Source of the DNA: Tardiphaga sp. 709
Lineage (GTDB): Bacteria > Pseudomonadota > Alphaproteobacteria > Rhizobiales > Xanthobacteraceae
Direction of reading: 5' to 3'
DNA length: 64,000 nucleotides
NCBI RefSeq assembly: GCF_032401055.1
Contig: NZ_CP135529.1
Location: forward strand, 4,028,501 to 4,092,500
A model generated the notes under the pieces. That model had not been told where the DNA came from. It saw only the letters and a list, made by a program, of their open reading frames with translations, and did no database searches. A program made the position numbers and the translations under genes. How positions within the stretch are numbered: position 1 is the first letter of the stretch; every line of letters begins with the position of its first letter. This document shows, piece after piece, positions 32,903 to 64,000 of the stretch.

Positions 32903-32936
32903 ATCGCATGCTGGAAGGACATGTGTCCCCGGCCTG

Positions 32937-32990
32937 TTTAGCGACTTATTTTACGTGGCTGCAAGCCGGCCGGCTCAAATCACCACGGGA
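32937..32990 (-). promoter_or_regulatory. SAM-II riboswitch aptamer
   Basis: On the minus strand the aptamer reads GTGGTGATTTGAGCC, then GGCTTGCAGCCACG, then TAAGTCGCTAAA. These are the P1 stem, the SAM-contacting loop and the pseudoknot strand of the SAM-II class, found in alphaproteobacteria before met genes. The next bases form the antiterminator arm. A TTGACG at 33022-33027 (minus strand) with a 17-bp spacer to TATGCA (32999-33004) could be the promoter, placing the transcript start just before the aptamer. Confidence 0.93.
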
Positions 32991-33103
32991 TAACGATGTG
33001 CATATTCCCGCTTGCCCTTTTCGTCAAGGCGGGGCTGAGATAACCGGTAAAGTCGCTATTTTTCAGTGTATTCTCGCTGAAGGACGACCGAAGGACGAGA
33101 CCT

Positions 33104-48068: not shown

Positions 48069-48142
48069 GCGGGCGTAGTTCAATGGTAGAACGGCAGCTT
48101 CCCAAGCTGCATACGAGGGTTCGATTCCCTCCGTCCGCTCCA
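48069..48142 (+). tRNA. tRNA-Gly (anticodon CCC)
   Basis: A 74-nt cloverleaf with the CCA encoded. The acceptor stem GCGGGCG pairs with CGTCCGC (one G-T pair), the D arm holds AGTTCAATGGTAGA, the anticodon stem GCAGC/GCTGC carries the loop TTCCCAA, and the T arm has GGTTCGATTCC. Anticodon CCC reads GGG. The 3' end is a usual integration target, and an integrase remnant lies 54 bp downstream. Confidence 0.97.
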
Positions 48143-49296: not shown

Positions 49297-50151
49297 TTAT
49301 CTCTGCGGTCCTGATAGGTTCACCTCACGCTCAGCCCGAAAAACATTGCTGTGCAGGCTGGCGATCCACTGCCGGCCGCTAGAGGTAACATTGAGATACC
49401 GTATCGCAAGCTGAATCTGCGGTGCAACGTTGGTCCAGTAGAACTGTGGAAATTTATAGACGATGTCAGCCGGCGTTGCATAACCAAGCGCTTTATTCAG
49501 TCCGATCTCCTCGAACTCATGGAACAGAGCATTTGATTTCCTTATGTAATTGGGATCACCGAGCTGGCCAATCAGATCCGCAGCACGCAACAGCAATCCC
49601 TCTTCCTCGTCGAGGTCATCACCTCCTCCGTTTGTTGCATCGATGTAGGGAAAGCGCGTGTATTCGATGGCCCGGGCAATCCGGGCGGCGTCGACTTCCT
49701 CCACGGCATGGAGCCTCTCAATCACAAAGAGCTTTGAGCGGTCGACATGGTAGGGTGCGAGCGCGGCATCGGAGGATCCAACCGGCAATTCAATTTTGCG
49801 CCCGGTAAGGTCCGCAACATAAGCGCCGTCTTCATCGCCCTGGATGATGCCCCGCACATATCCAATGTCATGGGTCAGGCAGGCCATAATGAAGTTCGCA
49901 TAGTCGGTTGCGGTGGTCGTCCGTTGCAGCGCGCGGCCCGCCAGAATATCGTTCCCGACCAGCGTAACCAGCATGGTATGCTCGATATTATGATAGAGTG
50001 CATCACTATTTCCGATGCACTCCAAAGCTAGCCTGGCGGCAAAGGGCAGCAATTTTATCAGATCGGAATGTGAGGAGCGGAAGCGACCTTCGGTTTCCTG
50101 CGCCAGAAACGTGCCAAGGGCTTGCGCTGTCACTTGAGGAATTGTGATCAT
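49297..50151 (-). CDS. HD-domain metal-dependent phosphohydrolase
   Basis: 284 residues. The HD superfamily metal ligands are visible as His in YHNIEHTMLV (about 53-62) and His-Asp in CLTHDIGYVRG (about 91-101), with a later aspartate in LLLRAADLIGQLGDPNY. The long helical fold is that of nucleotide or cyclic-nucleotide phosphohydrolases, but no GGDEF or sensor domain is attached. The substrate is unknown. An FNR/FixK box lies at 50284-50297, 139 bp before the start. It is the first gene of the low-oxygen block after the tRNA and integrase relic. Confidence 0.85.
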   Translation of the reverse strand: MITIPQVTAQALGTFLAQETEGRFRSSHSDLIKLLPFAARLALECIGNSDALYHNIEHTMLVTLVGNDILAGRALQRTTTATDYANFIMACLTHDIGYVRGIIQGDEDGAYVADLTGRKIELPVGSSDAALAPYHVDRSKLFVIERLHAVEEVDAARIARAIEYTRFPYIDATNGGGDDLDEEEGLLLRAADLIGQLGDPNYIRKSNALFHEFEEIGLNKALGYATPADIVYKFPQFYWTNVAPQIQLAIRYLNVTSSGRQWIASLHSNVFRAEREVNLSGPQR

Positions 50152-50283: not shown

Positions 50284-50297
50284 TTGATCTGAATCAA
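50284..50297. promoter_or_regulatory. FNR/FixK box upstream of the HD-domain gene
   Basis: TTGATCTGAATCAA is a perfect TTGAT-N4-ATCAA. It lies between the antiporter stop and the HD-domain gene and can only serve the latter. The 50152-50380 gap has no gene. Confidence 0.75.
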
Positions 50298-50380: not shown

Positions 50381-51481
50381 TCATTCTACCCCTTGGCCCG
50401 TCGGCGGAACTACATATAGCGTTAGCGCAAAGACTGCGTAAATGAAGATGAGTAGGGCGCCGACGAACCAGGCCGAGCGACCGCTGCTCGTAATGAAGCT
50501 CGCTGTCACGGTCGCAATCATGACCATAGTGACGGCGCCGGGCCAGAATTGCAGGCTCATTGGCGACGGTCCGACGACATAGCTGAGTAGCACCAGGGCG
50601 GGGGCTACGAACAGCGCAATCTGGGAGGCGCTGCCAAGCGCGATGCTGACGCTCATGTCGAGGCGGTCCTTGCGAGCGGCAGAAAAGGCAACGGCAAACT
50701 CGGCAGCGGCCCCGACCATTGAGACGATGATAAAGCCAACGAAGGCCGGGCTCATTCCAAACGTTGCTGCAGCCTTCTGCACCGACTCGACAAAAATCTC
50801 ACTCACAAGTGCAACCAGCACGGTGACAGCAAGCAGTGTGCCCACCGCAAGGACGATCGGCCAGTGTTCCTCGCCTTCGTCGTGCGCGGCGCTTGCGAAT
50901 AACTCCTTGTGGGTCTTCAGCGAGAACAGCAGGCCGAGTGCGTAAGCAATGATGAGCAGGATGGCGAGGCCGACGCTGAGCTTCCGCATGACGGTCTCAC
51001 CCTGCACGAGATCAAGGTCGGCGACTGCCGATGGAGCGAGCAGGGCGACCGTCGCCATCAGTAAGAGACCGGAGTAGAGCCGCGCGCCGGAGCGATTATA
51101 TTCTTGGACATGGTAGCGCAGGCCGCCAAGGAGCAGACAGGCGCCGAGCATGAAGAGGGCGTTGGTGACAATCGCACCGGCAATTGACGCCTTCACCAGC
51201 ATGTACTGGCCGGCCTGTAACGCGGTGATCGCAATGATAAGCTCCGTTAAGTTTCCCAGCGTGGCGTTGAGCAACCCGCCGACGGCATCACCGGTCTTGG
51301 CGGCAACCGCTTCGGTCGCATGGCTGAGCAGGGCGGCCAGCGGCACGATGGCGAGAACCGAGAGTATGAACAGCAGCGTATGGGAATGCGGCGCTATTGC
51401 TTCCACGACCAGCACGACAGGCACGAAGATCAACATCCAAAGCAGTGGTGTGTGCTGGATTTGCTTGAGCAGGGGTTTCAT
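50381..51481 (-). CDS. Ca2+/H+ antiporter of the CAX/ChaA family
   Basis: 366 residues, about 11 membrane helices. The two signature repeats of the cation/Ca2+ exchanger superfamily are clear: GGLLNATLGNLTELIIAI (about 68-85) and FIIVSMVGAAAEFAVAF (about 252-268). These carry the acidic residues (Glu in LGNLTE and GAAAEF) that bind the ion. It exports Ca2+ or Na+/K+ in exchange for protons. An FNR/FixK box centred 69 bp upstream of the start suggests low-oxygen expression. I leave the symbol blank because CAX and ChaA are not separable here. Confidence 0.88.
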   Translation of the reverse strand: MKPLLKQIQHTPLLWMLIFVPVVLVVEAIAPHSHTLLFILSVLAIVPLAALLSHATEAVAAKTGDAVGGLLNATLGNLTELIIAITALQAGQYMLVKASIAGAIVTNALFMLGACLLLGGLRYHVQEYNRSGARLYSGLLLMATVALLAPSAVADLDLVQGETVMRKLSVGLAILLIIAYALGLLFSLKTHKELFASAAHDEGEEHWPIVLAVGTLLAVTVLVALVSEIFVESVQKAAATFGMSPAFVGFIIVSMVGAAAEFAVAFSAARKDRLDMSVSIALGSASQIALFVAPALVLLSYVVGPSPMSLQFWPGAVTMVMIATVTASFITSSGRSAWFVGALLIFIYAVFALTLYVVPPTGQGVE

Positions 51482-51543: not shown

Positions 51544-51557
51544 TTGATCTAGCTCAA
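51544..51557. promoter_or_regulatory. FNR/FixK box upstream of the antiporter gene
   Basis: TTGATCTAGCTCAA matches TTGAT-N4-ATCAA at 9 of 10 conserved positions. Placed at -41.5 it predicts a transcript start near 51509 and a 28-nt leader for the antiporter on the minus strand. Confidence 0.68.
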
Positions 51558-51566
51558 CAAGACCTC

Positions 51567-52088
51567 CTAGGTGAGCTTAAGCACGAGGCTGACGATCTGG
51601 GGATCTTTCCGCGGGGCTGCCTTGAAGCCGAACCTGGTGAAGATCTTTCGCATCGCGGTGTTCTCGGGCAGAACTTCTGCGGTCAATTCTTTCAGCCCGG
51701 CGTCACGTCCGAGTTTGATGAGGTGCCGCATGAGGATCGAGCCCACGCCGCGTCCCTGCCACCCATCGACTACCATGAACGCCATCTCGGCCTGGCCTGG
51801 CTCGGAAACGATATATCGGCAACCACCCACCAGGATATTCCGGCCCGCTTCCTCAGCGCGCGCAGTCAGCGCGACATGATTTTCGAAATCAATGTCCATG
51901 AAGAAGGCGCGTTCCTTGTCGGAGAAATGGCGTTTCATAACGAAAAAGCGGCGTTGCAGCGATTGGACGCCGGCCTGTGTGAGCGCGGCGAGCATGTCCG
52001 GCTCGTCTTCCGGCCGAAGCGCCAGGATACTCACAAGGCTGCCATCGCGTAACTGCTCTTGCGCGGCGTAGGTGGCAGCATCGGACAT
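51567..52088 (-). CDS. GNAT-family acetyltransferase
   Basis: 173 residues from the ATG at 52088 with GCGGAG upstream; the frame is open to 52211 but that part overlaps a regulatory box. The GNAT fold has MAFMVVDGWQGRGVGSILMR (about 108-127), containing the acetyl-CoA-binding Q/R-x-x-G-x-G/A loop, then LTAEVLPENTAMRKIFTRFGF. The substrate is unknown. Related stand-alone domains also occur at the end of acetyl-CoA synthetase-like fusions linked to acetate metabolism, which would fit the acetate kinase nearby. It shares an FNR box with the divergent AI-2E gene. Confidence 0.86.
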   Translation of the reverse strand: MSDAATYAAQEQLRDGSLVSILALRPEDEPDMLAALTQAGVQSLQRRFFVMKRHFSDKERAFFMDIDFENHVALTARAEEAGRNILVGGCRYIVSEPGQAEMAFMVVDGWQGRGVGSILMRHLIKLGRDAGLKELTAEVLPENTAMRKIFTRFGFKAAPRKDPQIVSLVLKLT

Positions 52089-52161: not shown

Positions 52162-52175
52162 TTGATCTGGATCAA
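52162..52175. promoter_or_regulatory. FNR/FixK box between the GNAT and AI-2E genes
   Basis: TTGATCTGGATCAA is a perfect palindromic match. It is centred 80 bp from the GNAT start and 65 bp from the AI-2E start, so it may serve both divergent promoters. Confidence 0.75.
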
Positions 52176-52233
52176 GACTACCGGATGTCCGCAGCAGCAA
52201 CGCTGACGCACCTGAACAGATCAAGGCGCGTTC

Positions 52234-53325
52234 GTGAAAACACTTCGCCGCGTTTTATCCGGGGACGATGTCATCCAGCTTGTGGTCCGGGTGGGATTGC
52301 TGGCGTTACTGGTGATCTGGACGTTCATCGTGATCCGCTCCTTCGTGCCAATTCTGGCTTGGAGCGGTGTCCTTGCAGTCGCCTTCTATCCGGCTTTCAA
52401 CTGGCTGGCCAAACTGCTCGGTGGCCGTCCCCGAACGGCTGCGACGATCCTCACAATCGTCAATCTTGGAATTGTGATCGGGCCGGCGACTTGGCTGGGT
52501 TTGAGCGCGGTGGATGGGGTCAGACAACTCGCCGATGACCTGAGTGCCGGCAATCTGGTCATTCCGTCACCGCCCGAACACATCAAGGAATGGCGTTTCG
52601 TCGGGCCCCAGCTGTATGAAATCTGGAGCCGGGCGTTCAGCAATATCAGGACGGTGTTGCGCGAGGTCGCGCCGTATTTGAAACCCTTGGCGGGGACGAT
52701 GCTCACGCTTGCGGGGAGCGTCGGCGTCGGTACGCTCAAATTTTTGCTGTCCGTGCTTATAGCCGGCTTTCTCTTCCCCTACGGTGCCCAACTGGCCGCA
52801 GGCGGAAGGCGTCTTCTTTCCCTCATCGTTCCCGAGCAGAGCGAACATTTGCTGGATTTGGCGGGGGCGACAATCCGCGCCGTCTCTCAGGGCGTGATCG
52901 GCGTCGCGGTCTTGCAGGCCCTGCTGGCGGGCATCGGGTTCAAAATGGCCGGCATTCCCAGCGCTGGCCTCCTGGCCTTTGCGGTCATGCTGCTGACCAT
53001 CATTCAGATCGGCGCAGCAATCGTCATTCTTCCTGTGGTCATCTGGATCTGGATGGACAAGGATTTCACCACGGCACTGCTGTTGACAGTGTTTCTTGGC
53101 TTCGTCGGCGTGCTCGACAACATATTGAAACCGCTCGTGATGGGACGCGGACTTACGACGCCGACACTTGTCATCTTCATCGGCGTCATCGGAGGAACTC
53201 TTGCACACGGAATTGTTGGCCTCTTTATCGGGCCGATTGTTCTTTCGGTCGCCTGGGAGTTGATGGCGGCATGGATGCGCGAGGATCAATCCAGACCGGC
53301 GCCGGGGCTGACTGCGGACCCTTGA
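52234..53325 (+). CDS. AI-2E-family membrane transporter
   Basis: 363 residues with seven to eight membrane helices in the AI-2E/PerM pattern: two pairs near the N-terminus, a soluble middle (about 95-150) and a helical C-terminal half with FLGFVGVLDNILKPLVMGRG (about 287-306), the family signature. Members export signalling molecules or act as Na+/H+ antiporters. The start is GTG 52234. The stop overlaps the FNR box that precedes the DUF3141 gene, so the downstream operon has its own promoter inside this gene's end. Confidence 0.87.
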   Translation: MKTLRRVLSGDDVIQLVVRVGLLALLVIWTFIVIRSFVPILAWSGVLAVAFYPAFNWLAKLLGGRPRTAATILTIVNLGIVIGPATWLGLSAVDGVRQLADDLSAGNLVIPSPPEHIKEWRFVGPQLYEIWSRAFSNIRTVLREVAPYLKPLAGTMLTLAGSVGVGTLKFLLSVLIAGFLFPYGAQLAAGGRRLLSLIVPEQSEHLLDLAGATIRAVSQGVIGVAVLQALLAGIGFKMAGIPSAGLLAFAVMLLTIIQIGAAIVILPVVIWIWMDKDFTTALLLTVFLGFVGVLDNILKPLVMGRGLTTPTLVIFIGVIGGTLAHGIVGLFIGPIVLSVAWELMAAWMREDQSRPAPGLTADP

Positions 53326-53335
53326 CCTAGATCAA
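53322..53335. promoter_or_regulatory. FNR/FixK box upstream of the DUF3141-pta-ackA-fabI operon
   Basis: TTGACCTAGATCAA matches 9 of 10 conserved positions and is centred 61 bp before the DUF3141 ATG. A class II promoter would start near 53370 with a 20-nt leader. No CTGTCAT-type PHO half-site is visible in 53326-53389. Confidence 0.72.
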
Positions 53336-53389
53336 CGATGCCTTGCGCAAAGCCCCTTGAATGACGTGGCGCGACGATGAGGTCGGAAC

Positions 53390-55612
53390 ATGTCGAAGGA
53401 AGCGTCAAACTTGCTGGGCGGTCCGATGTCCGGGCTCGTTGCTTCGGCGGTGGAATACATGGTCGATGCTGGACAGCGGAGCATGCTGTTCCTGGACGTT
53501 ATGCGTCAGCGTGGCGATCAGTATCGCGAGCATGTCGCGCAGACCGCACCGCATGTCCTTCAGTATGCAGCCGAATTGATTATCGATGGTCGTGACCTGA
53601 ACGAGCCTGTGAACTACGCGCTGGTTCGCATCGTTCCGCCCGCGGGCGTTGAAATCGATTTCGAACGACGGCCGTTCATCGTGGTCGATCCTCGTGCAGG
53701 TCACGGTCCGGGCATCGGCGGTTTCAAGGCCGACAGTGAAATAGGCGTGGCGATGAAAGCAGGTCACCCCTGCTATTTCATTGGCTTCCTGCCGGAACCG
53801 ATGCCGGGACAGACCATCGAGCGCATAGCGCGGGCCGAAGCGCAGTTCATCGAGAAGGTCATCGCTCTGCATCCCAAGGCTGACGGCAAGCCTTGCGTCA
53901 TCGGTAATTGCCAGGCCGGTTGGGCCGTCATGATTTTGGCATCGCTGCGGCCCGAGCTGTTCGGGCCGCTGATCATCGCAGGCGCTCCGCTCGCGTATTG
54001 GGAAGGAGTGCACGGAAAATACCCGATGCGCTATTCCGGTGGCCTGATGGGAGGCAGTTGGCTTACCGCGATGACCAGTGATCTCGGTGCCGGAAAATTT
54101 GACGGCGCCTGGCTGGTGCAAAATTTCGAGAACCAGAACCCCTCGAACACGCTGTGGACCAAGCAATACAATGTCTATTCCAATATCGATACCGAGGCGG
54201 ATCGCTATCTTGAGTTCGAGCGTTGGTGGGGCGGCCACGTCAATCTGAATGCTGAAGAAATCCAGTTCATCGTCGACGAGCTTTTCATTGGCAACAACCT
54301 CGCCGCGGGCAAGGTCGAGATGTCGGACGGCCGGAAGGTCGACTTGCGCAATATCAGGTCGCCGATCCTGGTGTTCTGCTCCGAGGGCGACAACGTTACG
54401 CCGCCGCAGCAAGCGCTGAATTGGATCCTCGATTGCTATGCTGATGTGGATGAGATCAGGGCGTACGGGCAGACGATTGTCTATACGGTTCACCAAAGCA
54501 TCGGCCATCTGGGGATCTTCGTGTCCGGCGGCGTAGCCAAGAAGGAACATACGGAGTTTTCCAGCAACATCGATCTCATCGATGTATTGCCGCCGGGTCT
54601 CTATGAAGCGACCTTTGAAGCCAAGGGGGAGGCGACCGCGAGCGCCGACCTCGTCGTCGGTCAATGGGTGATGCGCTGCGAGGCCCGGACGCTTGATGAC
54701 ATCAGGGCCATGGGCGGTAATTCGCCGGAGGATGAGCGGCGCTTCGCTGCCGCCAAGCGCGTCTCGGAGATGAATCTCGCAGCCTACCGGAAGTATGTTC
54801 AACCCTGGCTCAAGAATGCAGTGACGCCGCAGATGGCGGAAATGATGCGCAATTTGCATCCGTTGCGGCTTCAATATGAAGCTTTCAGCAGCAAAAGTCC
54901 CTGGATGAGCTGGGTGAAGTCTGCCGCGGACAGCATCGAAGACAATCGCAAGCCGGTCTCCAAAGATAATCCCTTTCTGGCCTTTCAGGAGCAGATGGGG
55001 AAGCAGATCGTTCACGCACTGGACGGCTGGCGGGACGCTCAAGAGGCGCTGAGCGAGGCCATGTTCCTCAACATCTATGGGTCGCCGGAATTGCAAGCAG
55101 CCCTCGGCATCGACCCGAAGTCCGAGCCGTCGCGCCGCCGGGAAATGTCGGCCGAGCACCGAGCCATGCTCGACAAGAAGATCGCTGAACTCAGGTCCAG
55201 GATTGCAGTGGGTGGCCTTCGCGAAGCGACCTTGCGTTCGTTGCTTTATGTTGGCTCTGCGCGGGGAATGGTCGATGAGCGAAGCATCGAGGCGCTGCGC
55301 CAGGTTCGGCGCGATCAGGCCGGAGCACAATTAACGCTGTCCGAATTCAAGACTCTGGTGCGCGAGCAGTTCTTCATGCTGTTGCTCGATCCGGAAGGGG
55401 CGCTTGCCGCTATTCCGGCGTTGCTGCCTGCGGATCACAATCAAAAGCAGGCGATTTTCGCGGCGATGCGTGAGGTGTTGTCCGCCAGCGGCGAAATCAC
55501 TGGCGAGCGCGCAGTCAGGCTCGGGCGGATCGCCGGGTTGTTCGGTGTGGAAGCAGGCGGGGTGGGGACGTCAAACGTTACCCATTTCGACCCTGAGGCG
55601 AGAGCGTCGTAG
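53390..55612 (+). CDS. DUF3141 protein, alpha/beta hydrolase with a PHA-synthase-like Cys nucleophile
   Basis: 740 residues. The hydrolase core (about 90-400) has a lipase-like box GNCQAG with Cys174 where serine is usual, as in polyhydroxyalkanoate synthases. The acid and base are visible as Asp in FCSEGDNVTPP and His in SIGHLGIFVSGG, also like PhaC. The C-terminal ~330 residues are helical and specific to the family. No signal peptide is seen, so it is cytoplasmic. It heads an operon with pta, ackA and fabI. A homologue called PHB-synthase-like precedes pta-ackA in Sinorhizobium, as I recall. Its reaction is unproven: acyl transfer to or from a polyester or CoA is likely. Confidence 0.85.
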   Translation: MSKEASNLLGGPMSGLVASAVEYMVDAGQRSMLFLDVMRQRGDQYREHVAQTAPHVLQYAAELIIDGRDLNEPVNYALVRIVPPAGVEIDFERRPFIVVDPRAGHGPGIGGFKADSEIGVAMKAGHPCYFIGFLPEPMPGQTIERIARAEAQFIEKVIALHPKADGKPCVIGNCQAGWAVMILASLRPELFGPLIIAGAPLAYWEGVHGKYPMRYSGGLMGGSWLTAMTSDLGAGKFDGAWLVQNFENQNPSNTLWTKQYNVYSNIDTEADRYLEFERWWGGHVNLNAEEIQFIVDELFIGNNLAAGKVEMSDGRKVDLRNIRSPILVFCSEGDNVTPPQQALNWILDCYADVDEIRAYGQTIVYTVHQSIGHLGIFVSGGVAKKEHTEFSSNIDLIDVLPPGLYEATFEAKGEATASADLVVGQWVMRCEARTLDDIRAMGGNSPEDERRFAAAKRVSEMNLAAYRKYVQPWLKNAVTPQMAEMMRNLHPLRLQYEAFSSKSPWMSWVKSAADSIEDNRKPVSKDNPFLAFQEQMGKQIVHALDGWRDAQEALSEAMFLNIYGSPELQAALGIDPKSEPSRRREMSAEHRAMLDKKIAELRSRIAVGGLREATLRSLLYVGSARGMVDERSIEALRQVRRDQAGAQLTLSEFKTLVREQFFMLLLDPEGALAAIPALLPADHNQKQAIFAAMREVLSASGEITGERAVRLGRIAGLFGVEAGGVGTSNVTHFDPEARAS

Positions 55613-55646
55613 GGCAGGTTCAGTCACGGGGAGTGGGAGCAACATC

Positions 55647-56609
55647 ATGTCAGCTGACGCAAGCCAAGCACGATCTCCCAGTAAATATGATCGACTGATC
55701 ACGGCGGCGAAGGCTGTGCCGCCGGTCCCGACTGTTGTCGTGCATCCTTGCGATGAGACCTCGCTGCGCGGCGCTGTCGATAGTGCGCAAGCAGGCATCA
55801 TCCGGCCAGTCCTGGTCGGTCCCGCTCAGAAGATCAAGGATACCGCGGAGAAGAGCGGCCTCGCCATCGCGGGCTTCGAGATTGTCGACGCTGCGCATAG
55901 CGATGATTCTGCTGCCAAGGGTGTCGAGTTGATTCATGCAGCCAAAGGCGAGATGCTGATGAAAGGCAGCCTGCATACCGACGAACTCATGCGAGCCGTG
56001 ACGGCAAAAGTCGGCGGCTTGCGCACCAATCGGCGCATCAGCCACGTGTTCGTGATGGACGTTCCGGCCTACGCCGAGACCATTTTTGTCACAGATGCGG
56101 CAATCAACATCTTTCCGGATCTCGCAGCCAAGCGGGATATCATTCAAAATGCCATCGATCTCTACAATCAAGCGGGGTTCGGCCAGTCTCCACGCGTGGC
56201 GATCCTCTCGGCGGTGGAGACTGTCACCGCCATGATTCCCTCGACGATCGAGGCGGCGGCGCTTTGTAAAATGGCCGACCGCGGCCAGATCACCGGCGGG
56301 GTGCTCGACGGCCCATTGGCCTTCGACAATGCCATCGATGTTGAGGCAGCGCGGATCAAGGGCATCAAGTCCGAGGTCGCAGGACGCGCGCAGATACTTG
56401 TTGTTCCCGACCTTGAGGCCGGCAACATGCTGGCAAAGAATCTCGCTTACTTCGCCAAGGCTGATGGCGCCGGTATCGTGTTGGGGGCCAGGGTGCCCGT
56501 CGTGTTGACGTCGCGTGCGGACACGGCGCGCGCCCGGATGGCGTCCTGCGCCATAGCCTCGCTATACGCGCATGCGAGGCGTCAGCATGCACCAACAGTT
56601 TCCGGGTGA
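55647..56609 (+). CDS. pta: phosphate acetyl/butyryltransferase
   Basis: 320 residues from the ATG at 55647; an open frame reaches back into the DUF3141 gene but has no start support. The single-domain phosphotransacylase fold has [21 protein letters not shown] in its first third, then [13 protein letters not shown] (about 109-121), [21 protein letters not shown] and [13 protein letters not shown] (about 223-235). It interconverts acyl-CoA and acyl phosphate. The size fits both acetate (short Pta) and butyrate (Ptb) enzymes. GGGAG lies upstream. It is followed by acetate kinase after 5 bp. Confidence 0.88.
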
Positions 56610-56614
56610 TAGTC

Positions 56615-57829
56615 ATGGATACAATTCTTGTCGTCAATGCTGGCTCCTCAAGCGTCAAGTTTCAGATTTTCTCGGTTGAGGGAGAGGGGAACTTACAAAG
56701 GCGGATCAAGGGCCAGATAGATGGAATCGGCAGCCGCCCGCGGCTACGTGCGAATGGCCAGAACGGCGATCCGATGGCTGATCGTGCTTATCCGATCGAG
56801 GCCGTGGCAGATGTACCAGCGGCGATGTCTGTCGCCGGCGCCTGGCTGCGTGACGAGCTGAATATCAACCCAATCGCCGTCGGCCATCGCGTCGTTCATG
56901 GCGGACCGGATTATGCAAATCCGGTCTTGATCGACCATGGAGTTGTGGGGCGGCTGGAACGGTACGTCTCTCTGGCTCCCCTGCACCAGCCACATAATCT
57001 GGCACCGATCAGGACAATTCTAAACAACTTCCCAACCCTGCCGCAGGTTGCCTGTTTCGACACTGCCTTCCATCGCGATCATGATGCGCTGGCGGACTAC
57101 TATGCGATCCCGCATCAGCTTCATGCCGAAGGCATCAGGCGCTACGGCTTCCATGGCCTGTCCTACGAGTATATCGCCAAGCGCTTGTCGCAAGTCGCAT
57201 CGAACGTCGCTGGCGGGCGCGTGATCGTCGCCCATCTCGGTAGCGGTGCATCGATGTGCGCGATCAAGAACGGAAAGAGTGTCGAGAGCACCATGGGCTT
57301 TACAGCGCTCGATGGTCTCGCAATGGGAACACGTGCGGGCCAGCTCGATCCGGGCGTCGTGCTCTATCTGATCGCGGAAAAAGGGATGTCCGTCTCCAAA
57401 GTGCAGGATTTCCTCTATCGGGATTGCGGTCTGAAAGGACTGTCCGGGGTCAGCAATGACATGCGAGAGCTCCAGACCAGCGGCGATCCGCGCGCTGCAT
57501 TTGCGGTCGACTATTTCGTCTATCGGGTCGGCCTCCACGCCGGCATGCTGGTGGCCGCGCTGCAGGGCCTCGACGCCTTCGTATTCACCGCCGGGATCGG
57601 CGAGAATTCGGCCACGATCCGAGCGCGCATTGCTGAGAGACTGACCTGGCTTGGGGTCACACTCGATGCAAGCGCGAATGCGGCAAATGCCAGCAAGATT
57701 TCAGGGGCAGACAGCCGTGTTCCCGTCTTCGTGATTCCCACCGACGAAGAGTTAATGATTGCGCAGCACACCCTGACGCTGCTGATGAATCCGAAAACGC
57801 AAAATCAGAAGCGCGAGAGAGTGTCATGA
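56615..57829 (+). CDS. ackA: acetate kinase
   Basis: 404 residues from the ATG at 56615 (a GTG at 56606 overlaps the pta stop and is also possible). Motifs: phosphate-binding [11 protein letters not shown] (about 6-16), [30 protein letters not shown] and [12 protein letters not shown], then [11 protein letters not shown]. It makes ATP from acetyl phosphate, completing substrate-level phosphorylation with Pta. Butyrate or propionate kinase activity cannot be excluded. The stop overlaps fabI by 4 bp (ATGA). Confidence 0.92.
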
Positions 57830-58617
57830 CAATTCCGGTATTTCCCGAGACCAGTGTCGCGTTGAAAGGCAAGAAGGGGCTGGTCGTCGGTATTGCCAAC
57901 GATCAGTCCATCGCGTGGGGCTGCGCCAAGGCATTTCGGGCGCTTGGCGCTGAGGTTGCCGTCACCTATCTGAACGAGAAGGCCAAGAAGCATGTCGAGC
58001 CCCTTGCCGTGACACTGGAGTCTCCGATCTTCATGCCGCTCGATGTGATGGTTGAGGGCGAAACCGAGAAGGTGTTTGAACGAATTGGCAAGGAATGGGG
58101 CCATCTCGATTTTCTGCTGCACTCCATCGCCTTTTCACCCAAAGGTGCATTGCATGGCCGTGTGGTCGACGTGGACCGTGAGGGCTTTCAGAAGACCATG
58201 GACGTGTCCTGCTGGTCGTTCATGCGCATGGCGCATCTGGCCGAGCCTTTGATGAAGAACGGCGGAACGATGTTCACCATGACTTATTACGGCAGCCAGA
58301 TGGTAGTGAAGAACTACAACGTCATGGGCATCGCGAAGGCGGCGCTTGAGGCCGCGGTGCGTTATATCGCAGCCGAGCTTGGCCCGAAGGGCATTCGCGT
58401 GCATGCCATCTCGCCTGGGCCGCTGGCAACGCGTGCGGCATCAGGCATTCCGGAGTTCGATGAATTGATGGACAAGGCCCAGTCGCAGGCACCGGCGCGC
58501 AGTCTCGTCAGCATTGACGACGTGGGGAGGGCGACGGCGTTCCTCGCGCTCGATGGCGCCAAGCTGATCACCGGGAGCGTGATGTATATCGATGGCGGCT
58601 ACCACATCATCGATTGA
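57826..58617 (+). CDS. fabI: enoyl-ACP reductase (FabI-type SDR)
   Basis: 263 residues. The NADH-binding start is [20 protein letters not shown] (about 16-35), the type I pattern with SIAWG. Catalytic Tyr-x6-Tyr/Met-Lys is seen around [20 protein letters not shown] (about 158-177). It reduces trans-2-enoyl-ACP in fatty-acid synthesis, or an enoyl-CoA here. Such operon copies are often second fabI genes. It is translationally coupled to ackA. A role as an electron sink that regenerates NAD+ under low oxygen fits the setting. Confidence 0.9.
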
Positions 58618-58633
58618 CGTATGGACCCCTGCT

Positions 58634-59092
58634 TCAGCTGAAGTGCAGGCCGATCACTTCGGCGACGCAGGCCGGGCGCTTGCCGCCCTCGATCTCGATC
58701 GTCACCCGATAGTGGGTGCGCAAGCCGTTGGGCGGCACTTCCTCGGCTTCCGCAATGCTGACGCGTCCACGCAACCTTGAACCGGCCGGCACCGGGGAGA
58801 GATAGCGAACGCGATCCGCGCCATAGTTCAGCGTGTTCTTCAACCCTTTCAAACCCATCACCGAGCGGATGAACATCGGCGTCAAGCTCAATGACAGCAG
58901 GCCGTGAGCAATGGTCTTGCCGCCCGGCATCTCTGCCTCCGCCCGCTCCTGGTCGACATGAATCCATTGTTCGTCGCAGGTTGCTTCCGCAAAAGTGTTG
59001 ATCCGATCCTGTGTCACCTCGATCCAGTCGCTAACGCCGATCTCCGTACCTACGGCGGCTTTCAGCTCATCGAACCCGTTGAAAATTCGCAT
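58634..59092 (-). CDS. MaoC-like (R)-specific enoyl hydratase
   Basis: 152 residues, a single hot-dog domain. The hydratase-2 region DRINTFAEATCDEQWIHVD (about 29-47) carries Asp and His, followed by ERAEAEMPGGKTIAHGLLSL, which is the usual signature. PhaJ, NodN and MaoC enzymes share it. PhaJ types supply (R)-3-hydroxyacyl-CoA for polyester synthesis, which would link to the PhaC-like DUF3141 protein. It is the last gene of the minus-strand set 62039-58634 and meets fabI tail-to-tail. Confidence 0.86.
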   Translation of the reverse strand: MRIFNGFDELKAAVGTEIGVSDWIEVTQDRINTFAEATCDEQWIHVDQERAEAEMPGGKTIAHGLLSLSLTPMFIRSVMGLKGLKNTLNYGADRVRYLSPVPAGSRLRGRVSIAEAEEVPPNGLRTHYRVTIEIEGGKRPACVAEVIGLHFS

Positions 59093-59114
59093 CGCGATTC
59101 GTTCCTGTGCACGG

Positions 59115-59765
59115 TTACAGCTTCATTTCAGGGACATTGTCTGGAACAGCGATCTCCGCCTCGGTCACCGCCAGCACCTCGGCGATGCTGACGCCGGGCG
59201 CCGTCTCCAGCAAAGTTGCATTGCCGCCGGGAAACGCGATGACTGCCATATCGGTGACAACGAGATCGATCGGCCGCGCCGACGTCAGCGGCAGGTTGCA
59301 CCTCGCGACGATCTTGGACTTTCCTTTGGCCGCATGCTGCATGGCGACGATGACGCGCTTAGCGCCGCTGACGAGATCCATGGCGCCGCCCATCCCTGGC
59401 ACCATCTTGCCAGGGATCATCCAGTTGGCGAGGCGCCCGCCGGCATCGACCTGCAGACCGCCGAGCACGGTGAGATCAACATGACCGCCTCGGATCAAGC
59501 CGAACGACATCGCGCTGTCGAAGGTGGCGGCGCCGGGCAGGGCGCTGATCGGCTTGCCGCCGGCATCAGTCAGCAGAGGATGGGCCATGCCTTGCTCCGG
59601 GATGGGACCGGTGCCGATCAGGCCGTTCTCGGACTGAAAGTAAACGTGCAGGCCCGCTGGCACGTAGTTAGCCACCAGTGTCGGAATGCCGATGCCGAGA
59701 TTGACGAGGTTGCCAGGTCGAAGCTCCTGCGCCACGCGGCGGGCGATGATGGTTTGCGCATCCAT
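59115..59765 (-). CDS. atoA: 3-oxoacid/acyl CoA-transferase subunit B
   Basis: 216 residues, family I beta subunit with the catalytic Glu46 in YFQSENGLIGTGP. NLGIGIPTLVANYVP (about 22-36) and PGMGGAMDLVSGAKRV are shared signatures. It pairs with the subunit at 59769-60416, 3 bp upstream. The AtoDA/ScoAB type uses acetate, succinate or acetoacetate as CoA acceptor or donor. The name atoA is by similarity; the acid used is unknown. Confidence 0.84.
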   Translation of the reverse strand: MDAQTIIARRVAQELRPGNLVNLGIGIPTLVANYVPAGLHVYFQSENGLIGTGPIPEQGMAHPLLTDAGGKPISALPGAATFDSAMSFGLIRGGHVDLTVLGGLQVDAGGRLANWMIPGKMVPGMGGAMDLVSGAKRVIVAMQHAAKGKSKIVARCNLPLTSARPIDLVVTDMAVIAFPGGNATLLETAPGVSIAEVLAVTEAEIAVPDNVPEMKL

Positions 59766-59768
59766 GGA

Positions 59769-60416
59769 TCACCCGTTCGCAACGAGATAATCGACCAGGG
59801 GGCCAGGAGTCATGACATGGTCAGGCGCGATCACGCCGACCGGAACAATATGTTCGGCGGTGACGATCACGGTATCCGCAGCCATCGCCATGACCGGATT
59901 GAAGTTACGTGCCGTGAGGGCGTAGGAAAGGTTGCCGGCGTAGTCGGCGAGAAATGCCTGCACCAATGCAAAATCCGCGCGCAGCGCGGTTTCCAGCAAG
60001 TATATCTTCCCGCCGACATCGATCCTCTGCTTGCCTTCCTCGACGAGCGTACCGACGCCTGTTGGCGTGAGTACGCCGCCAAGCCCACAGCCGCCAGCGC
60101 GAATGCGCTCGACGAAAGTGCCCTGCGGGATGAGATCGACGGTGATCTGCTTGCCCAGCATTTGTTGCTGGGCTTTCGGATTGAGCCCAATATGGGTCCC
60201 GATCATGTGGGTCACGTGTGCGCCGTCAAACAGCTTTCCAACGCCTTTTCCAGGTGTGGCCGCGTCATTGCTGATGAGAGAAAGATTCGATTTCCTCTGC
60301 CGTACCAGCTCGTCGAGAAGGCGCTCAGGCGTGCCGACACCCATGAACCCGCCGACCATGATGCTTGCACCGGCCGGGATCACCGCAATGGCTTCTTCCA
60401 GGGAAACGGCCTTCAT
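59769..60416 (-). CDS. atoD: 3-oxoacid/acyl CoA-transferase subunit A
   Basis: 215 residues, alpha subunit, with the glycine-rich GASIMVGGFMGVGTPERLLD (about 16-35) and the conserved GTFVERIRAGGCGLGG (about 119-134). GGAG lies upstream of the ATG at 60416. It forms a heterotetramer with AtoA. Together with MaoC it could handle crotonyl-, 3-hydroxybutyryl- or acetoacetyl-CoA. The FNR/FixK box at 60492-60505 is 82 bp upstream. Confidence 0.85.
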   Translation of the reverse strand: MKAVSLEEAIAVIPAGASIMVGGFMGVGTPERLLDELVRQRKSNLSLISNDAATPGKGVGKLFDGAHVTHMIGTHIGLNPKAQQQMLGKQITVDLIPQGTFVERIRAGGCGLGGVLTPTGVGTLVEEGKQRIDVGGKIYLLETALRADFALVQAFLADYAGNLSYALTARNFNPVMAMAADTVIVTAEHIVPVGVIAPDHVMTPGPLVDYLVANG

Positions 60417-60491
60417 GAGGAGGCTCCGGTCGACAGGCGATCAAGAAAAGGCGACCATGACGAAGTGTTGGTCCATCAACCCGGCGCTCCT

Positions 60492-60505
60492 TTGATCTGC
60501 GTCAA
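60492..60505. promoter_or_regulatory. FNR/FixK box upstream of atoDA-maoC
   Basis: TTGATCTGCGTCAA matches 9 of 10 conserved positions. It overlaps the last codons of the 204-residue gene and is correctly oriented for atoD on the minus strand, so atoDA-maoC may have its own promoter. Confidence 0.62.
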
Positions 60506-61116
60506 GACTTCTGATCATTTCCTTCGCGAATGGAAATGCCAACGCTCTTGAGGGCATTCGCCCATAGCTCGCGAACCTGGGTATGTCGCTGTTCGAGGGC
60601 GACGCTCACGGGATCGCGAAAGGGCGCAAGGTTCGGGCCCTTCAAAAGAAGAATCTGCGCCTGCAGCAGGCGGCCGCTTTCAAGTTCAATACGGCGCAGC
60701 GCCGTGACGAACGGATCATGCGCCTTGGCATCGACCGGCAGGAGGGCCGCCGGGCGGATGCCAGCATGTATGGCATGTGCGCGGGCGGCGAGATCACCCG
60801 CCAGCGCCAGGGGTGGATCGGGAATGCCTTCGATTGGCTTTGGCAGCCATGTTGTTTCCCAGGATCCCACCAGATAGCTCAGGGCAAGATCGGGAGTCCA
60901 CGATGTCGCACGCAGCAACAGGGAAACGATCTCGGTTTCGCGATAAAACTGCGCGTTCAATTCGGTTTGCCAGGCGGAGTCCAGCTTGAGCGGCAAGGCA
61001 AACGCGAACTGCCGCGCCAGCGCGCCATGGGCCGAGACCAAGAATGCGGCCACGCGCGTCTGCTGATGCGGGGGCACGCAGCCATTGGTATCGAGTGGCC
61101 CGAAGAACCCGCTCAT
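60502..61116 (-). CDS. uncharacterised protein, 204 residues
   Basis: Not recognised. Mostly helical by appearance, with no membrane segment or metal motif. Visible blocks: RQFAFALPLKLDSAWQTELN (about 35-54), SLLLRATSWTPDLALSYLVG, then a C-terminal helix LESGRLLQAQILLLKGPNLAPFRD and RHTQVRELWANALKSVG. The last part could be an amphipathic helix, as in granule- or lipid-associated proteins, but this is a guess. Its start overlaps the alpha/beta hydrolase stop by 4 bp, so they are made together, and both lie in the FNR-box block. Confidence 0.7.
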   Translation of the reverse strand: MSGFFGPLDTNGCVPPHQQTRVAAFLVSAHGALARQFAFALPLKLDSAWQTELNAQFYRETEIVSLLLRATSWTPDLALSYLVGSWETTWLPKPIEGIPDPPLALAGDLAARAHAIHAGIRPAALLPVDAKAHDPFVTALRRIELESGRLLQAQILLLKGPNLAPFRDPVSVALEQRHTQVRELWANALKSVGISIREGNDQKS

Positions 61117-62039
61117 CGCATCGTTCCCTGCACCGGAATTGCACGCAGATGGTCGTAGCCGGCGGGAAACGGCATAATCTCGCCACCGGCTTCCTCCGGC
61201 GCAACATGGACAGACTTTTTGCCTTGCCAGCGACCTGCCAGCACATCCTCCGCAAAGCGTGCGAGCAGGTCGGCGGTGAGTGCTGGCTTCTCGAGCGTGA
61301 AGGCGTGATAAGCGCGCGGAATGATCGTGAGCGAGCTATCGGGAATGTGGATACGCAGGGTTTCGTGAAGCGCGCGTGGCGTCAGAAAGTCGAATTCGCC
61401 ATTCAGGATCATCGTCGGCACGCCGATACGATGTAGTTGCGACGTCAGCGGCTGGAAATCGAGGAAGGATTCCATCAGGTTCTGCAGTGCGTAGACGTCA
61501 TTGATCAGCCAGCCCTGCCTCTTGACCTTGTCGAGCGTTTCGAGAACCGGCTGCAGCCATTGGTCGCTGACATTCATGGGCAGCAGCAAGTCCTGAAGAT
61601 AGCTTGTGCCGCCAAGGATCAATCCGGTGCGCAGGGCATTGCCAAGTAGATAGAGTTGAGGCGGGAGCTCCGCAAAACAGCTCATTGGCACGAGGCCGGC
61701 GAGCCGCTGGCTGTGTTCGATGGCATAGCGTAGTGCGATGAGACCGCCGAAGCTGATACCTCCGAGAAAAACGGGGCCCTTACCCAGTTCTTCGATCAGA
61801 AGGTGGAGTGCAGCGACGTGATCGTCCTGACGGATGAAAAGCGCGGGCTTATCGGACGCACCCTGGCCAAGCAGATCGAACGTCGCAACGCGGAAGCGCC
61901 TTGCGACCAGCGCGTCGCGATAGGCAGTCCATAGTTCGGCGTATTGGGTCAGCCCGTTGACCAGAACGTAGACGGGTGCGTCCTCCGGGCCGTCAAGTTC
62001 ATAGCGTATCCGATACGTACCATACTTCAGGAACGGCAT
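61113..62039 (-). CDS. alpha/beta hydrolase
   Basis: 308 residues. The catalytic triad is visible: nucleophile Ser in GGISFGGLIA (about 93-102), Asp in LNGEFDFLTP (about 218-227) and His in PRAYHAFTLE (about 245-254). NGLTQYAELWTAY supplies the oxyanion region. The soluble fold and size fit esterases and the PHB-depolymerase/lipase group. It may cut thioesters or polyester. It is the first gene of an operon with the 204-residue protein and probably with atoDA-maoC, and shares an FNR/FixK box with the divergent gene at 62171. Confidence 0.86.
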   Translation of the reverse strand: MPFLKYGTYRIRYELDGPEDAPVYVLVNGLTQYAELWTAYRDALVARRFRVATFDLLGQGASDKPALFIRQDDHVAALHLLIEELGKGPVFLGGISFGGLIALRYAIEHSQRLAGLVPMSCFAELPPQLYLLGNALRTGLILGGTSYLQDLLLPMNVSDQWLQPVLETLDKVKRQGWLINDVYALQNLMESFLDFQPLTSQLHRIGVPTMILNGEFDFLTPRALHETLRIHIPDSSLTIIPRAYHAFTLEKPALTADLLARFAEDVLAGRWQGKKSVHVAPEEAGGEIMPFPAGYDHLRAIPVQGTMR

Positions 62040-62098
62040 TGCGCTGACCGGTTGGCGATTTGATCGCTGCGATACTCAACTCCCGAAAGTCGATTCCA

Positions 62099-62112
62099 TT
62101 GAGCTAGATCAA
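62099..62112. promoter_or_regulatory. FNR/FixK box shared by two divergent hydrolase genes
   Basis: TTGAGCTAGATCAA matches 9 of 10 conserved positions. It is centred 66 bp from both the minus-strand hydrolase start (62039) and the plus-strand start (62171), a symmetrical divergent arrangement. Confidence 0.72.
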
Positions 62113-62170: not shown

Positions 62171-64000
62171 ATGACCGGGGCAGACGCCACGAAACGTTGT
62201 GCTGTCAGTCTGATCATACTGCTCGTCGGCACAGCGATAGCGACCGCACAGCCCTTCACGCGTCGCTCGTCGCAAGTCCAGCATGATGGATTGAAGAAAT
62301 ACTACGAGATATCAAACTTCCGGCTGGGCGGTAAGTATGACCTCAACGACCACGCCAAGTGGGAAGACGGCGGCGAGGGTGGAGTCACGCTGGAGTCGCT
62401 CGGTGGTGGTAAGCTACGCACGGCCTATGTCGCAGTCGGAAACCCGCGCCGCAATGCCGCCGGTGAGATCACCAATGCGGTGGTCATAAATTCCTACTAT
62501 TCCGGCGACTCTACCGACATGTATGAGCAATGGGTCAAGGGCGCCGCGCTATCAGGCGGCGTGCCTATCATTGGTCCCGGACGACCGATCGATACCGACC
62601 GTTACTATGTCATTATGGTCGATCCGTTGGGCACTTGGGGCGCCAGCAAACCTTCGGACGGCCTTGGTATCAAATTTCCGCAGTACAGCTACTTTGACAT
62701 GGTGCAGGCCAACTATCGGATGTTGCGCGATCATTTGAAGGTCGTGCGCGTGGCGCTGGTCGCCGGCGTCTCGATGGGGGGCACGCAGACTTATGTTTGG
62801 GGCGTGCTGCATCCCGAATATATCGGTGCGCTGATGCCGATTGGCGGTACGACGCAGTCTGACGCCGGGGATCCAGTCGGCAACTGGACGTTCCAGCTCA
62901 TGACGGCCGCTATCCAGTCCGACCCGGTCTGGCAATCGACCAAGGGCGATTACTATAAGCTACCGAAGGAGAAACACCCGCTGCCGGGCATGGCCTTCGG
63001 CTGGTCGGTTCTTGGTCTGACCGGCTATGATTTCGGCTACAGGACAAACCAGAGTTTCGCGTCGGGAAGTTTTCTACTGGGACCCGCCGAATGAGAAAGC
63101 CGGTCTCAACGTGAATAACCGCTCTAAACTATATGATGCGGTGGATCTGGTCTGGCGCAACCGTATCGGCGAAACCTACAATATCAATGAGAACCTCGGG
63201 CGCATTCAGGCTCGCACGTTGGTGATGCATATCACCAACGACCTCTGGCTGAATTTCAAGCTTGCCCAGCGCGCCGTCGATCGCGTTCCGGGCGCAGACC
63301 TTATCTCCGAGGAGAGCCCGGTTGCTCACTACGGTGTGTTTCCGATCATCAACAATCGGAAGAACGATCCGAAATTCGTCGCGTTCATGGACGACGTGGC
63401 GAGCCTCGACCGGGCGCAGCAGTTCGTCGACAAGAATTATCGTATCCCTCGGGTTGCCGAAAATATCGACAAAACAAAATCGTTCTGGAAGGACTACGTG
63501 ATCTATCCCTATCCGGTCAAATATGCGACCGCGAAGGACAAGCGTGGGACGTCCTGGCAGATCGGCTACATGGACGAATATGCCGGTACGGACAGGGATC
63601 CGAAGGTCCTTGTCATCATTCACGGCAAGGGCGCTTTCGGCGGGCACTACGGCAATATCATGCAATATGCCTTGCGCAGTGGCGTGCGCGTGATCGTGCC
63701 CGATTTGCCTCATTATGGCATGTCCGGGCCCGGCAATCTCGACAAGAGCCCGGCGCGCAGCATGCAGGATATGCGCGAGGTGATCTATGATCTCGTCGTC
63801 AACCAGCTCAACGTCAAGAAGGCGCATTACCTTGGCCACTCTCTCGGCGGCCAGTTCGTGATGGGCTACGCCCTGACCTGGCCGGATGCGGTGCAAAGTC
63901 TTGCGCTCGAGGCGCCTTCCGGTCTTGAGGAATATCCGCGCGACATCACGGTCGCCAAGGACAAGAAGGCGCGTCTGTTCGACGAATCCTTCGGCCGTGA
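62171..64000 (+). pseudogene. secreted tandem alpha/beta hydrolase, frameshifted, continues past the edge
   Basis: The frame opens at ATG 62171 (GGGAGGA upstream) with a signal peptide (about 1-26, ending TATAQ-type). It reads a MetX/homoserine-acetyltransferase-like hydrolase with nucleophile AGVSMGGTQTYVWG (about 198-211), then stops at 63094. In the +1 frame from about 63063 the sequence runs on without a stop to 64000: WDPPNEKAGLNV, a spacer, then a second alpha/beta hydrolase unit with IIHGKGAFGGHYG and a second nucleophile AHYLGHSLGGQFVMG. One base too many (or two missing) near 63058-63066 best explains this. Either the gene is broken or the assembly has an error. The substrate is unknown; a secreted ester or polyester hydrolase is plausible. 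Confidence 0.78.

Follow-up and report, generated by a model that had tools for sequence, protein, structure and literature searches.

The stretch analyzed here, referred to as the window, comprises 64,000 nucleotides of Tardiphaga sp. 709 (positions 4,028,501 to 4,092,500 of a 6.26-Mb contig in a 6.36-Mb genome), and its right-hand part carries a block of genes coding for a DUF3141 protein, a phosphotransacylase, an acetate kinase-family enzyme, a FabI-type enoyl reductase, a MaoC hydratase, and an AtoDA-type CoA-transferase, together with hydrolases and transporters. Six boxes of the FixK/FNR type were found in this block, at 50284, 51544, 52162, 53322, 60492, and 62099, the same six positions at which the first-pass annotation of this DNA had placed them. 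As judged from its sequence features, the block is probably part of a low-oxygen island on the chromosome, controlled by FixK/FNR-type regulators and with a role in energy supply. Its genes and boxes, numbered by window position, are as follows.

49297-50151, minus strand: gene without a Pfam match
50284-50297: perfect FixK/FNR box, whose first base lies 146 bp upstream of the 49297-50151 gene
50381-51481, minus strand: Na/Ca-exchanger family transporter, Cax-like (PF01699, 3.7e-37)
51544-51557: FixK/FNR box, one mismatch; 76 bp upstream of the gene for the Cax-like transporter
51567-52088, minus strand: GNAT acetyltransferase (PF00583); start taken as the ATG at 52088, the longest open reading frame beginning at 52211
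52162-52175: FixK/FNR box, perfect; lies between two divergent genes, AI-2E at 72 bp and GNAT at 87 bp
52234-53325, plus strand: AI-2E family (YdiK-like) membrane protein (NF008216, 194 bits, under the cut-off of 305)
53322-53335: FixK/FNR box, one mismatch; the start of DUF3141 follows 68 bp after its first base
53390-55612, plus strand: DUF3141 protein, PhaC-like alpha/beta hydrolase (PF11339, 3.2e-293)
55647-56609, plus strand: phosphotransacylase, closer to Ptb than to Pta (PRK11890, 510 bits, above cut-off); start taken as the ATG at 55647, scans run on 55617-56609
56606-57829, plus strand: AckA, kinase of the acetate/propionate family (TIGR00016, 360 bits, above cut-off)
57826-58617, plus strand: FabI-type enoyl reductase, extra copy (NF005717, 439 bits, above cut-off)
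58634-59092, minus strand: MaoC hydratase (PF01575, 9.4e-20)
59115-59765, minus strand: CoA-transferase subunit B, AtoA-type (TIGR02428, 301 bits, above cut-off)
59769-60416, minus strand: CoA-transferase subunit A, AtoD-type (TIGR02429, 205 bits, above cut-off)
60492-60505: FixK/FNR box, one mismatch; 89 bp before atoD-atoA-maoC
60502-61116, minus strand: 204-amino-acid protein (orf204), second gene after the hydrolase, without a Pfam or NCBIfam match
61113-62039, minus strand: alpha/beta hydrolase (PF12146, PF00561)
62099-62112: FixK/FNR box, one mismatch; in the middle of the gap between divergent genes, whose starts are 73 bp and 72 bp away from its first base
62171-63998, plus strand: MetX-like part and second alpha/beta hydrolase part, split over two overlapping frames; runs beyond the window

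The gene content reported in the first-pass annotation was borne out by Pfam and NCBIfam, except that the enzyme it called a phosphotransacetylase is nearer to phosphate butyryltransferase (Ptb). This phosphotransacylase scored 298.9 bits with the Ptb model TIGR02706 and 66.1 bits with the Pta model TIGR00651, both below the cut-offs (410.5 and 311.2 bits, respectively), and its best solved relative was a phosphate butyryltransferase, 7vg9. Elsewhere in the genome, PTA_PTB matches were confined to two adjoining frames at 732799-733762. The island appears to contain the same enzyme families as the phosphate butyryltransferase/kinase route to ATP, from which it differs in that its kinase belongs to the acetate/propionate family and did not score above butyrate kinase cut-offs. 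The best relatives of the extra FabI within the same genome stood at 48% and 45%, and the closest solved structure to MaoC was Rv0130 (2c2i, 3.1e-39). The MetX-like and hydrolase parts lie in one frame in 45 of the 46 relatives that have both, and the split at 62171-63998 may be a true break or a sequencing error.

The consensus proposed in the first pass, TTGAT-N4-ATCAA, was matched perfectly only at 50284 and 52162, whereas the boxes at 51544, 53322, 60492, and 62099 carried one mismatch each; the pattern TTGA-N6-TCAA fitted all six. When up to one mismatch was allowed, the window contained 7 sites against 1.72 expected, and 100 shuffles gave a maximum of 6. At that setting a single site (9599) lay outside the block, as had been stated for the other 50 kb, but scanning with TTGA-N6-TCAA yielded 8 sites in the window, two of which (9599 and 18240) were beyond the block. 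In the whole genome TTGA-N6-TCAA occurred 92 times, compared with 19 occurrences of a reversed control pattern. The first base of the box was located at -68 to -89 in seven of eight box-gene pairs, and at -146 in the remaining pair.

The description of a 12-kb block was right as to its dense boxes and understated its extent. Six further boxes lay downstream of the window, the last at 4,118,730 of the contig, giving an island that extends 28 kb past the window end, with 12 TTGA-N6-TCAA boxes in 40 kb, its own FixK-like regulator, and a Pfl gene set. Perfect palindromes numbered 15 in the genome, and 6 of these fell between 4,078,784 and 4,117,951. Clustering was evaluated with the 72 main-contig sites whose fifth position, on either strand, is T or C, the remaining sites of the 92 being excluded. 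In this set the next-densest 40 kb of the contig held 4 boxes, versus 12 in the island, and 20,000 uniform random placements of the 72 sites produced at most 8 per 40 kb. These data indicated that the box density exceeds the genomic background and that an equal density is not seen elsewhere on the contig.

Box conservation was then evaluated in 80 DUF3141 loci from public genomes, mostly Bradyrhizobium, retained from 333 encoding a relative; a gene was counted if its start and 250 bp upstream were present, and as boxed if a box lay within that distance. These loci (1.70 Mb) contained 386 boxes and only 4 copies of the reversed pattern. A box preceded DUF3141 in 80/80 relatives (79/80 within 150 bp), AtoD in 65/65, the hydrolase in 41/47, the MetX-like gene in 40/45, and AI-2E in 32/40. 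The same was found for DUF3302 (11/12), DUF3300 (9/9), a DLH-type hydrolase (6/6), PflB (4/4), the gene at 49297-50151 (6/6), Cax (5/6), SulP (6/9), and the ion channel (4/8). Internal genes were rarely or never boxed, as seen for Pta (4/77), AckA (0/77), FabI (0/76), MaoC (0/65), AtoA (0/69), orf204 (0/47), HlyD (0/12), PflA (0/4), AspT (0/4), and FocA (0/3). The median distance from box center to start codon ranged from 62.5 to 76.5 bp for DUF3141, the two divergent hydrolase genes, AI-2E, and AtoD. In the aligned upstream regions of DUF3141, AtoD, the hydrolase, the MetX-like gene, and AI-2E, the eight core columns of the box carried 1.99, 1.90, 1.86, 1.94, and 1.68 bits, respectively, whereas the mean elsewhere upstream was 0.55, 0.68, 0.81, 0.95, and 0.46 bits and the best other 8-column stretch reached 1.17, 1.46, 1.45, 1.72, and 0.75 bits. 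Thus, the box core was the best-conserved stretch in all five promoters.

Past 48 kb the G+C content drops to 0.56-0.61, having been about 0.60-0.65 before that point, and a tRNA gene lies at window positions 48069-48139 (plus strand), just ahead of this drop and of the boxed block. A fall of this kind could in principle supply the boxes by composition or chance; the rarity of the reversed pattern in both the genome and the related loci, along with the conservation and fixed position of the boxes, leaves this explanation next to no probability. The enrichment of the boxes and their placement before first rather than internal genes, joined by their conservation and by the FixK/FNR-type regulators encoded in the genome, make the predicted FixK/FNR-box regulon well supported.

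Three Crp/FNR-type proteins were scanned as candidate regulators, and none passed the cut-offs of the named FixK, FnrL, and Fnr models. The one encoded in the island is FixK-like (218 bits against a cut-off of 300), lacks an FNR-type cysteine cluster as judged by eye, and gives seven matches across the genome, one of them to itself. An FNR-like protein encoded at 2.64 Mb has a cysteine-rich N terminus and two boxes closely upstream. The third, again FixK-like, adjoins genes that read by eye as ccoNOQP and has a perfect box to its left and right, and this locus is a positive control at the sequence level. No protein of the genome exceeded the FixL cut-off of 850 (best, 193.5 bits, from the kinase part only), a cut-off that none of 14 control genomes passed either, so that a divergent FixL may be present; none exceeded the FixJ cut-off of 255 (best, 202.6), which one of the 14 control genomes passed. 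Since neither FixL nor FixJ was found above cut-off, the sensor may be an FNR-type Fe-S protein. We infer that such a sensor, together with FixK paralogs, is favored over a classic FixLJ-FixK2 cascade, from which the genome differs in the lack of both proteins above model cut-off, and that FixK as the sole regulator of the island is doubtful.

With seven matches to the island regulator in the genome, another member of this family might read the boxes, and NnrR-type proteins use related sites; the block would then answer nitric oxide or nitrate rather than oxygen. However, denitrification genes were absent among the 40 proteins scanned with Pfam, and boxes of this type also flank the FixK-like gene that adjoins the ccoNOQP-type genes. 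We consider a nitrogen oxide-responsive block quite improbable, although no search aimed at NnrR was made.

The island has the same box type as the FixK2 regulon of Bradyrhizobium diazoefficiens, at comparable distances to start codons. In the available portion of PMC9104804, the FixK2 target table places boxes at -22 to -150, and the first bases lie at -47 to -140 for the five targets that in vitro transcription has validated; phaC2 and ppsA are among the validated targets. The blr3456-blr3459 unit is not named in that portion of the table, and the string blr345 is absent from the main text of PMC6515984, PMC10454721, PMC4064962, PMC6201568, and PMC9104804. A comparative FnrN/FixK study suggests, in the part consulted, that a phbC gene, possibly that for DUF3141, is under such control in some Rhizobiales (PMC4999443). 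The consulted parts of PMC6127331 and PMC2908626 held nothing further on the enzymes of the block, and a literature search returned no paper joining FixK with pyruvate formate, acetate kinase, and polyhydroxybutyrate (PHB).

In B. diazoefficiens, blr3456 heads the predicted unit blr3456-blr3459, in which pta is blr3457 and ackA is blr3458 (PMC10888616, as excerpted); from the gene order, blr3456 would be DUF3141 and blr3459 FabI. At 0.5% oxygen, blr3456 rose 7.2-fold in transcript and by log2 7.2 in protein when phaR was mutated, and 41 of 51 putative FixK2 targets rose with it (same excerpt). This response links the unit, on the evidence of that excerpt, to PHB control. It had been considered a firm argument for FixK2 control and was dropped as such, because Table 1 of that source predicts PhaR motifs before blr3456.

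A further system for comparison is the low-oxygen-induced lxa locus of Burkholderia (PMC4981469 and PMC9104464, both in part). Within the sections of PMC4981469 at hand, the lxa locus shares with the island a polyhydroxyalkanoate (PHA) polymerase or polymerase-like protein, a phosphate acetyl/butyryl transferase, and an acetate kinase in one locus, as well as a sulfate transporter, an HlyD protein, and Crp-family and response regulators (its Table 2). The lxa locus lists PhbB and alcohol dehydrogenases, in place of which the island has FabI, MaoC, AtoDA, and Pfl. Six universal stress proteins are given for lxa in the corresponding part of PMC9104464, whereas the Usp domain was found in none of the 40 proteins scanned with Pfam, small open reading frames being only partly covered. 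Because of this absence, the island was filed as a low-oxygen regulon and not as an lxa locus.

The DUF3141 protein has as its closest named relative that of Bradyrhizobium sp. NFR13 (95% protein identity), in a search from which entries of the same genome may be missing. Alignment with PhaC of the same genome gave a Cys174-Asp334-His373 triad, whose motifs were present in 80/80 relatives and whose residues were present in 9/9 distant DUF3141 homologs. An alpha/beta hydrolase survey, in the portion available, places DUF3141 with PHA synthases that have a Cys-Asp-His triad (PMC11878206). The class III PhaC model TIGR01836 matched the catalytic region (8.7e-8, under its cut-off). Although DUF3141 has the same triad as PhaC, it scored far under the cut-offs of the class I and class III models (31.5 versus 365.3 and 20.5 versus 622.65 bits), the PhaC_N domain was not found in it by Pfam, and no solved structure matched its sequence profile at an E value of 0.01. 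A structure predicted from 16 related sequences was not taken on to a fold search, its mean pLDDT (predicted local distance difference test) being 52.9.

Near-full-length DUF3141 was found in 9 genomes outside the family, of 199 searched, and a stretch of 14 to 20 kb was read in each. The phosphotransacylase and kinase adjoined DUF3141 in 5/9, and FabI was inside the stretch in 6/9. In one of them (L130) the order AspT-PflA-PflB-FabI-DUF3141-Pta-AckA was found in a row. A one-mismatch box preceded DUF3141 at 70 bp in L131 and at 187 bp in L132. In the latter (G+C content, 0.42), a single stretch carried FabI-AtoD-AtoA-DUF3141-Pta-AckA, and a strict box lay some 118 bp upstream of the FabI match.

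Several observations weigh against a low-oxygen island wired by FixK/FNR boxes. A strict box 300 bp or less from DUF3141 was found in 0/9 of the distant genomes, so box control would be lineage-specific and the enzyme set wider than its wiring. The box counts in the 80 loci are not independent, because the relatives are mostly of one genus. The claim of a box before almost every transcription unit holds for many first genes but not for the units of the FixK-like regulator (0/11), PPK2 (0/17), IalB (0/5), and the histidine kinase (0/7), nor largely for the LuxR-type regulator (1/14); GNAT, counted from its long start, was boxed in 0/8. Other conserved 8-column stretches lie upstream, up to the value given for the MetX-like gene, where the region enters the divergent gene. 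The exact substrates of the block enzymes, assigned by family alone, are far less certain than the regulon itself. Finally, the PhaR motifs predicted before blr3456 mean that direct repression by PhaR explains the rise in the phaR mutant equally well. On this basis, the PHA-responsive repressor might be the main control of the operon family, with the FixK/FNR box secondary; this appears unlikely, as the box is kept before DUF3141 in every one of the 80 relatives and the seven new direct PhaR targets do not include blr3456 in the available part of PMC10888616.

Under FixK/FNR-type control of the island, a fall in oxygen would lead an Fe-S FNR-type sensor, FixK paralogs, or both to bind the boxes and to activate transcription at class II-like promoters, and the boxed units would supply substrate-level ATP and electron disposal, a role that plausibly fits the enzyme families. 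PflB would convert pyruvate to acetyl-CoA and formate, and the Ptb-like enzyme with AckA would convert acyl-CoA via acyl-phosphate to the acid and ATP. An NADH sink might be provided by MaoC acting with the extra FabI, which could take (R)-3-hydroxyacyl-CoA via enoyl-CoA to its reduced form with NADH, while AtoDA would exchange CoA and DUF3141 may act on hydroxyacyl-CoA or polyester.

The Pfl genes form part of the island downstream of the window, which contains hydrolases, the ion channel, the Crp/FNR regulator, a FixJ-like response regulator, IalB, SulP, and PPK2, followed by DUF3302 with an HlyD-like gene, DUF2092, a histidine kinase, DUF3300, DUF4344, and the FocA-AspT-PflA-PflB set. In this set (FocA-like, AspT-like, PflA, and PflB, at 4,112,194-4,117,914 of the contig) a perfect box precedes PflB, and PflB (TIGR01255, 1104 bits against a cut-off of 994.2) and the activase PflA (TIGR02493, 278.3 against 231.75) passed their models, while the FocA-like transporter scored under its cut-offs. 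Together with an AckA above its cut-off and the adjoining of Pfl to FabI-DUF3141-Pta-AckA in L130, this set raises a real possibility, if short of an even chance, that the boxes are regulatory and the enzymes serve only pyruvate fermentation and acetate formation, with DUF3141, FabI, and MaoC acting in membrane or granule maintenance. Such a restricted role sits less well with a phosphotransacylase closer to Ptb than to Pta, and the PFL family occurred in only 18 of the 149 genomes searched within the family, whereas DUF3141 and the phosphotransacylase are far wider (94 and 87, respectively, of 94 loci that were chosen by DUF3141).

The series DUF3141, Ptb-like enzyme, AckA, and FabI, perhaps with MaoC and AtoDA, could also represent a fermentation of stored PHB to butyrate and ATP, a proposal we hold only tentatively and regard as unlikely. 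DUF3141 would free hydroxyacyl-CoA from PHB, MaoC and FabI would spend NADH to form butyryl-CoA, and the Ptb-like enzyme and kinase would yield butyrate and ATP; if true, aerobes would survive without oxygen on their own plastic.

For the low-oxygen island as a whole, the kind of regulon is already known and the DUF3141 module is little studied. The present data tie the DUF3141 family to specific partners, the phosphotransacylase and kinase, and to a specific switch, the box. The box in all 80 relatives and the partners in 5 of the 9 distant genomes therefore offer a direct way to ask what DUF3141 does, which bears on how aerobic soil bacteria and legume symbionts hold energy as oxygen falls.

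Elsewhere in the window, a SAM_alpha riboswitch was detected at 32917-32996 on the minus strand (84.2 bits).

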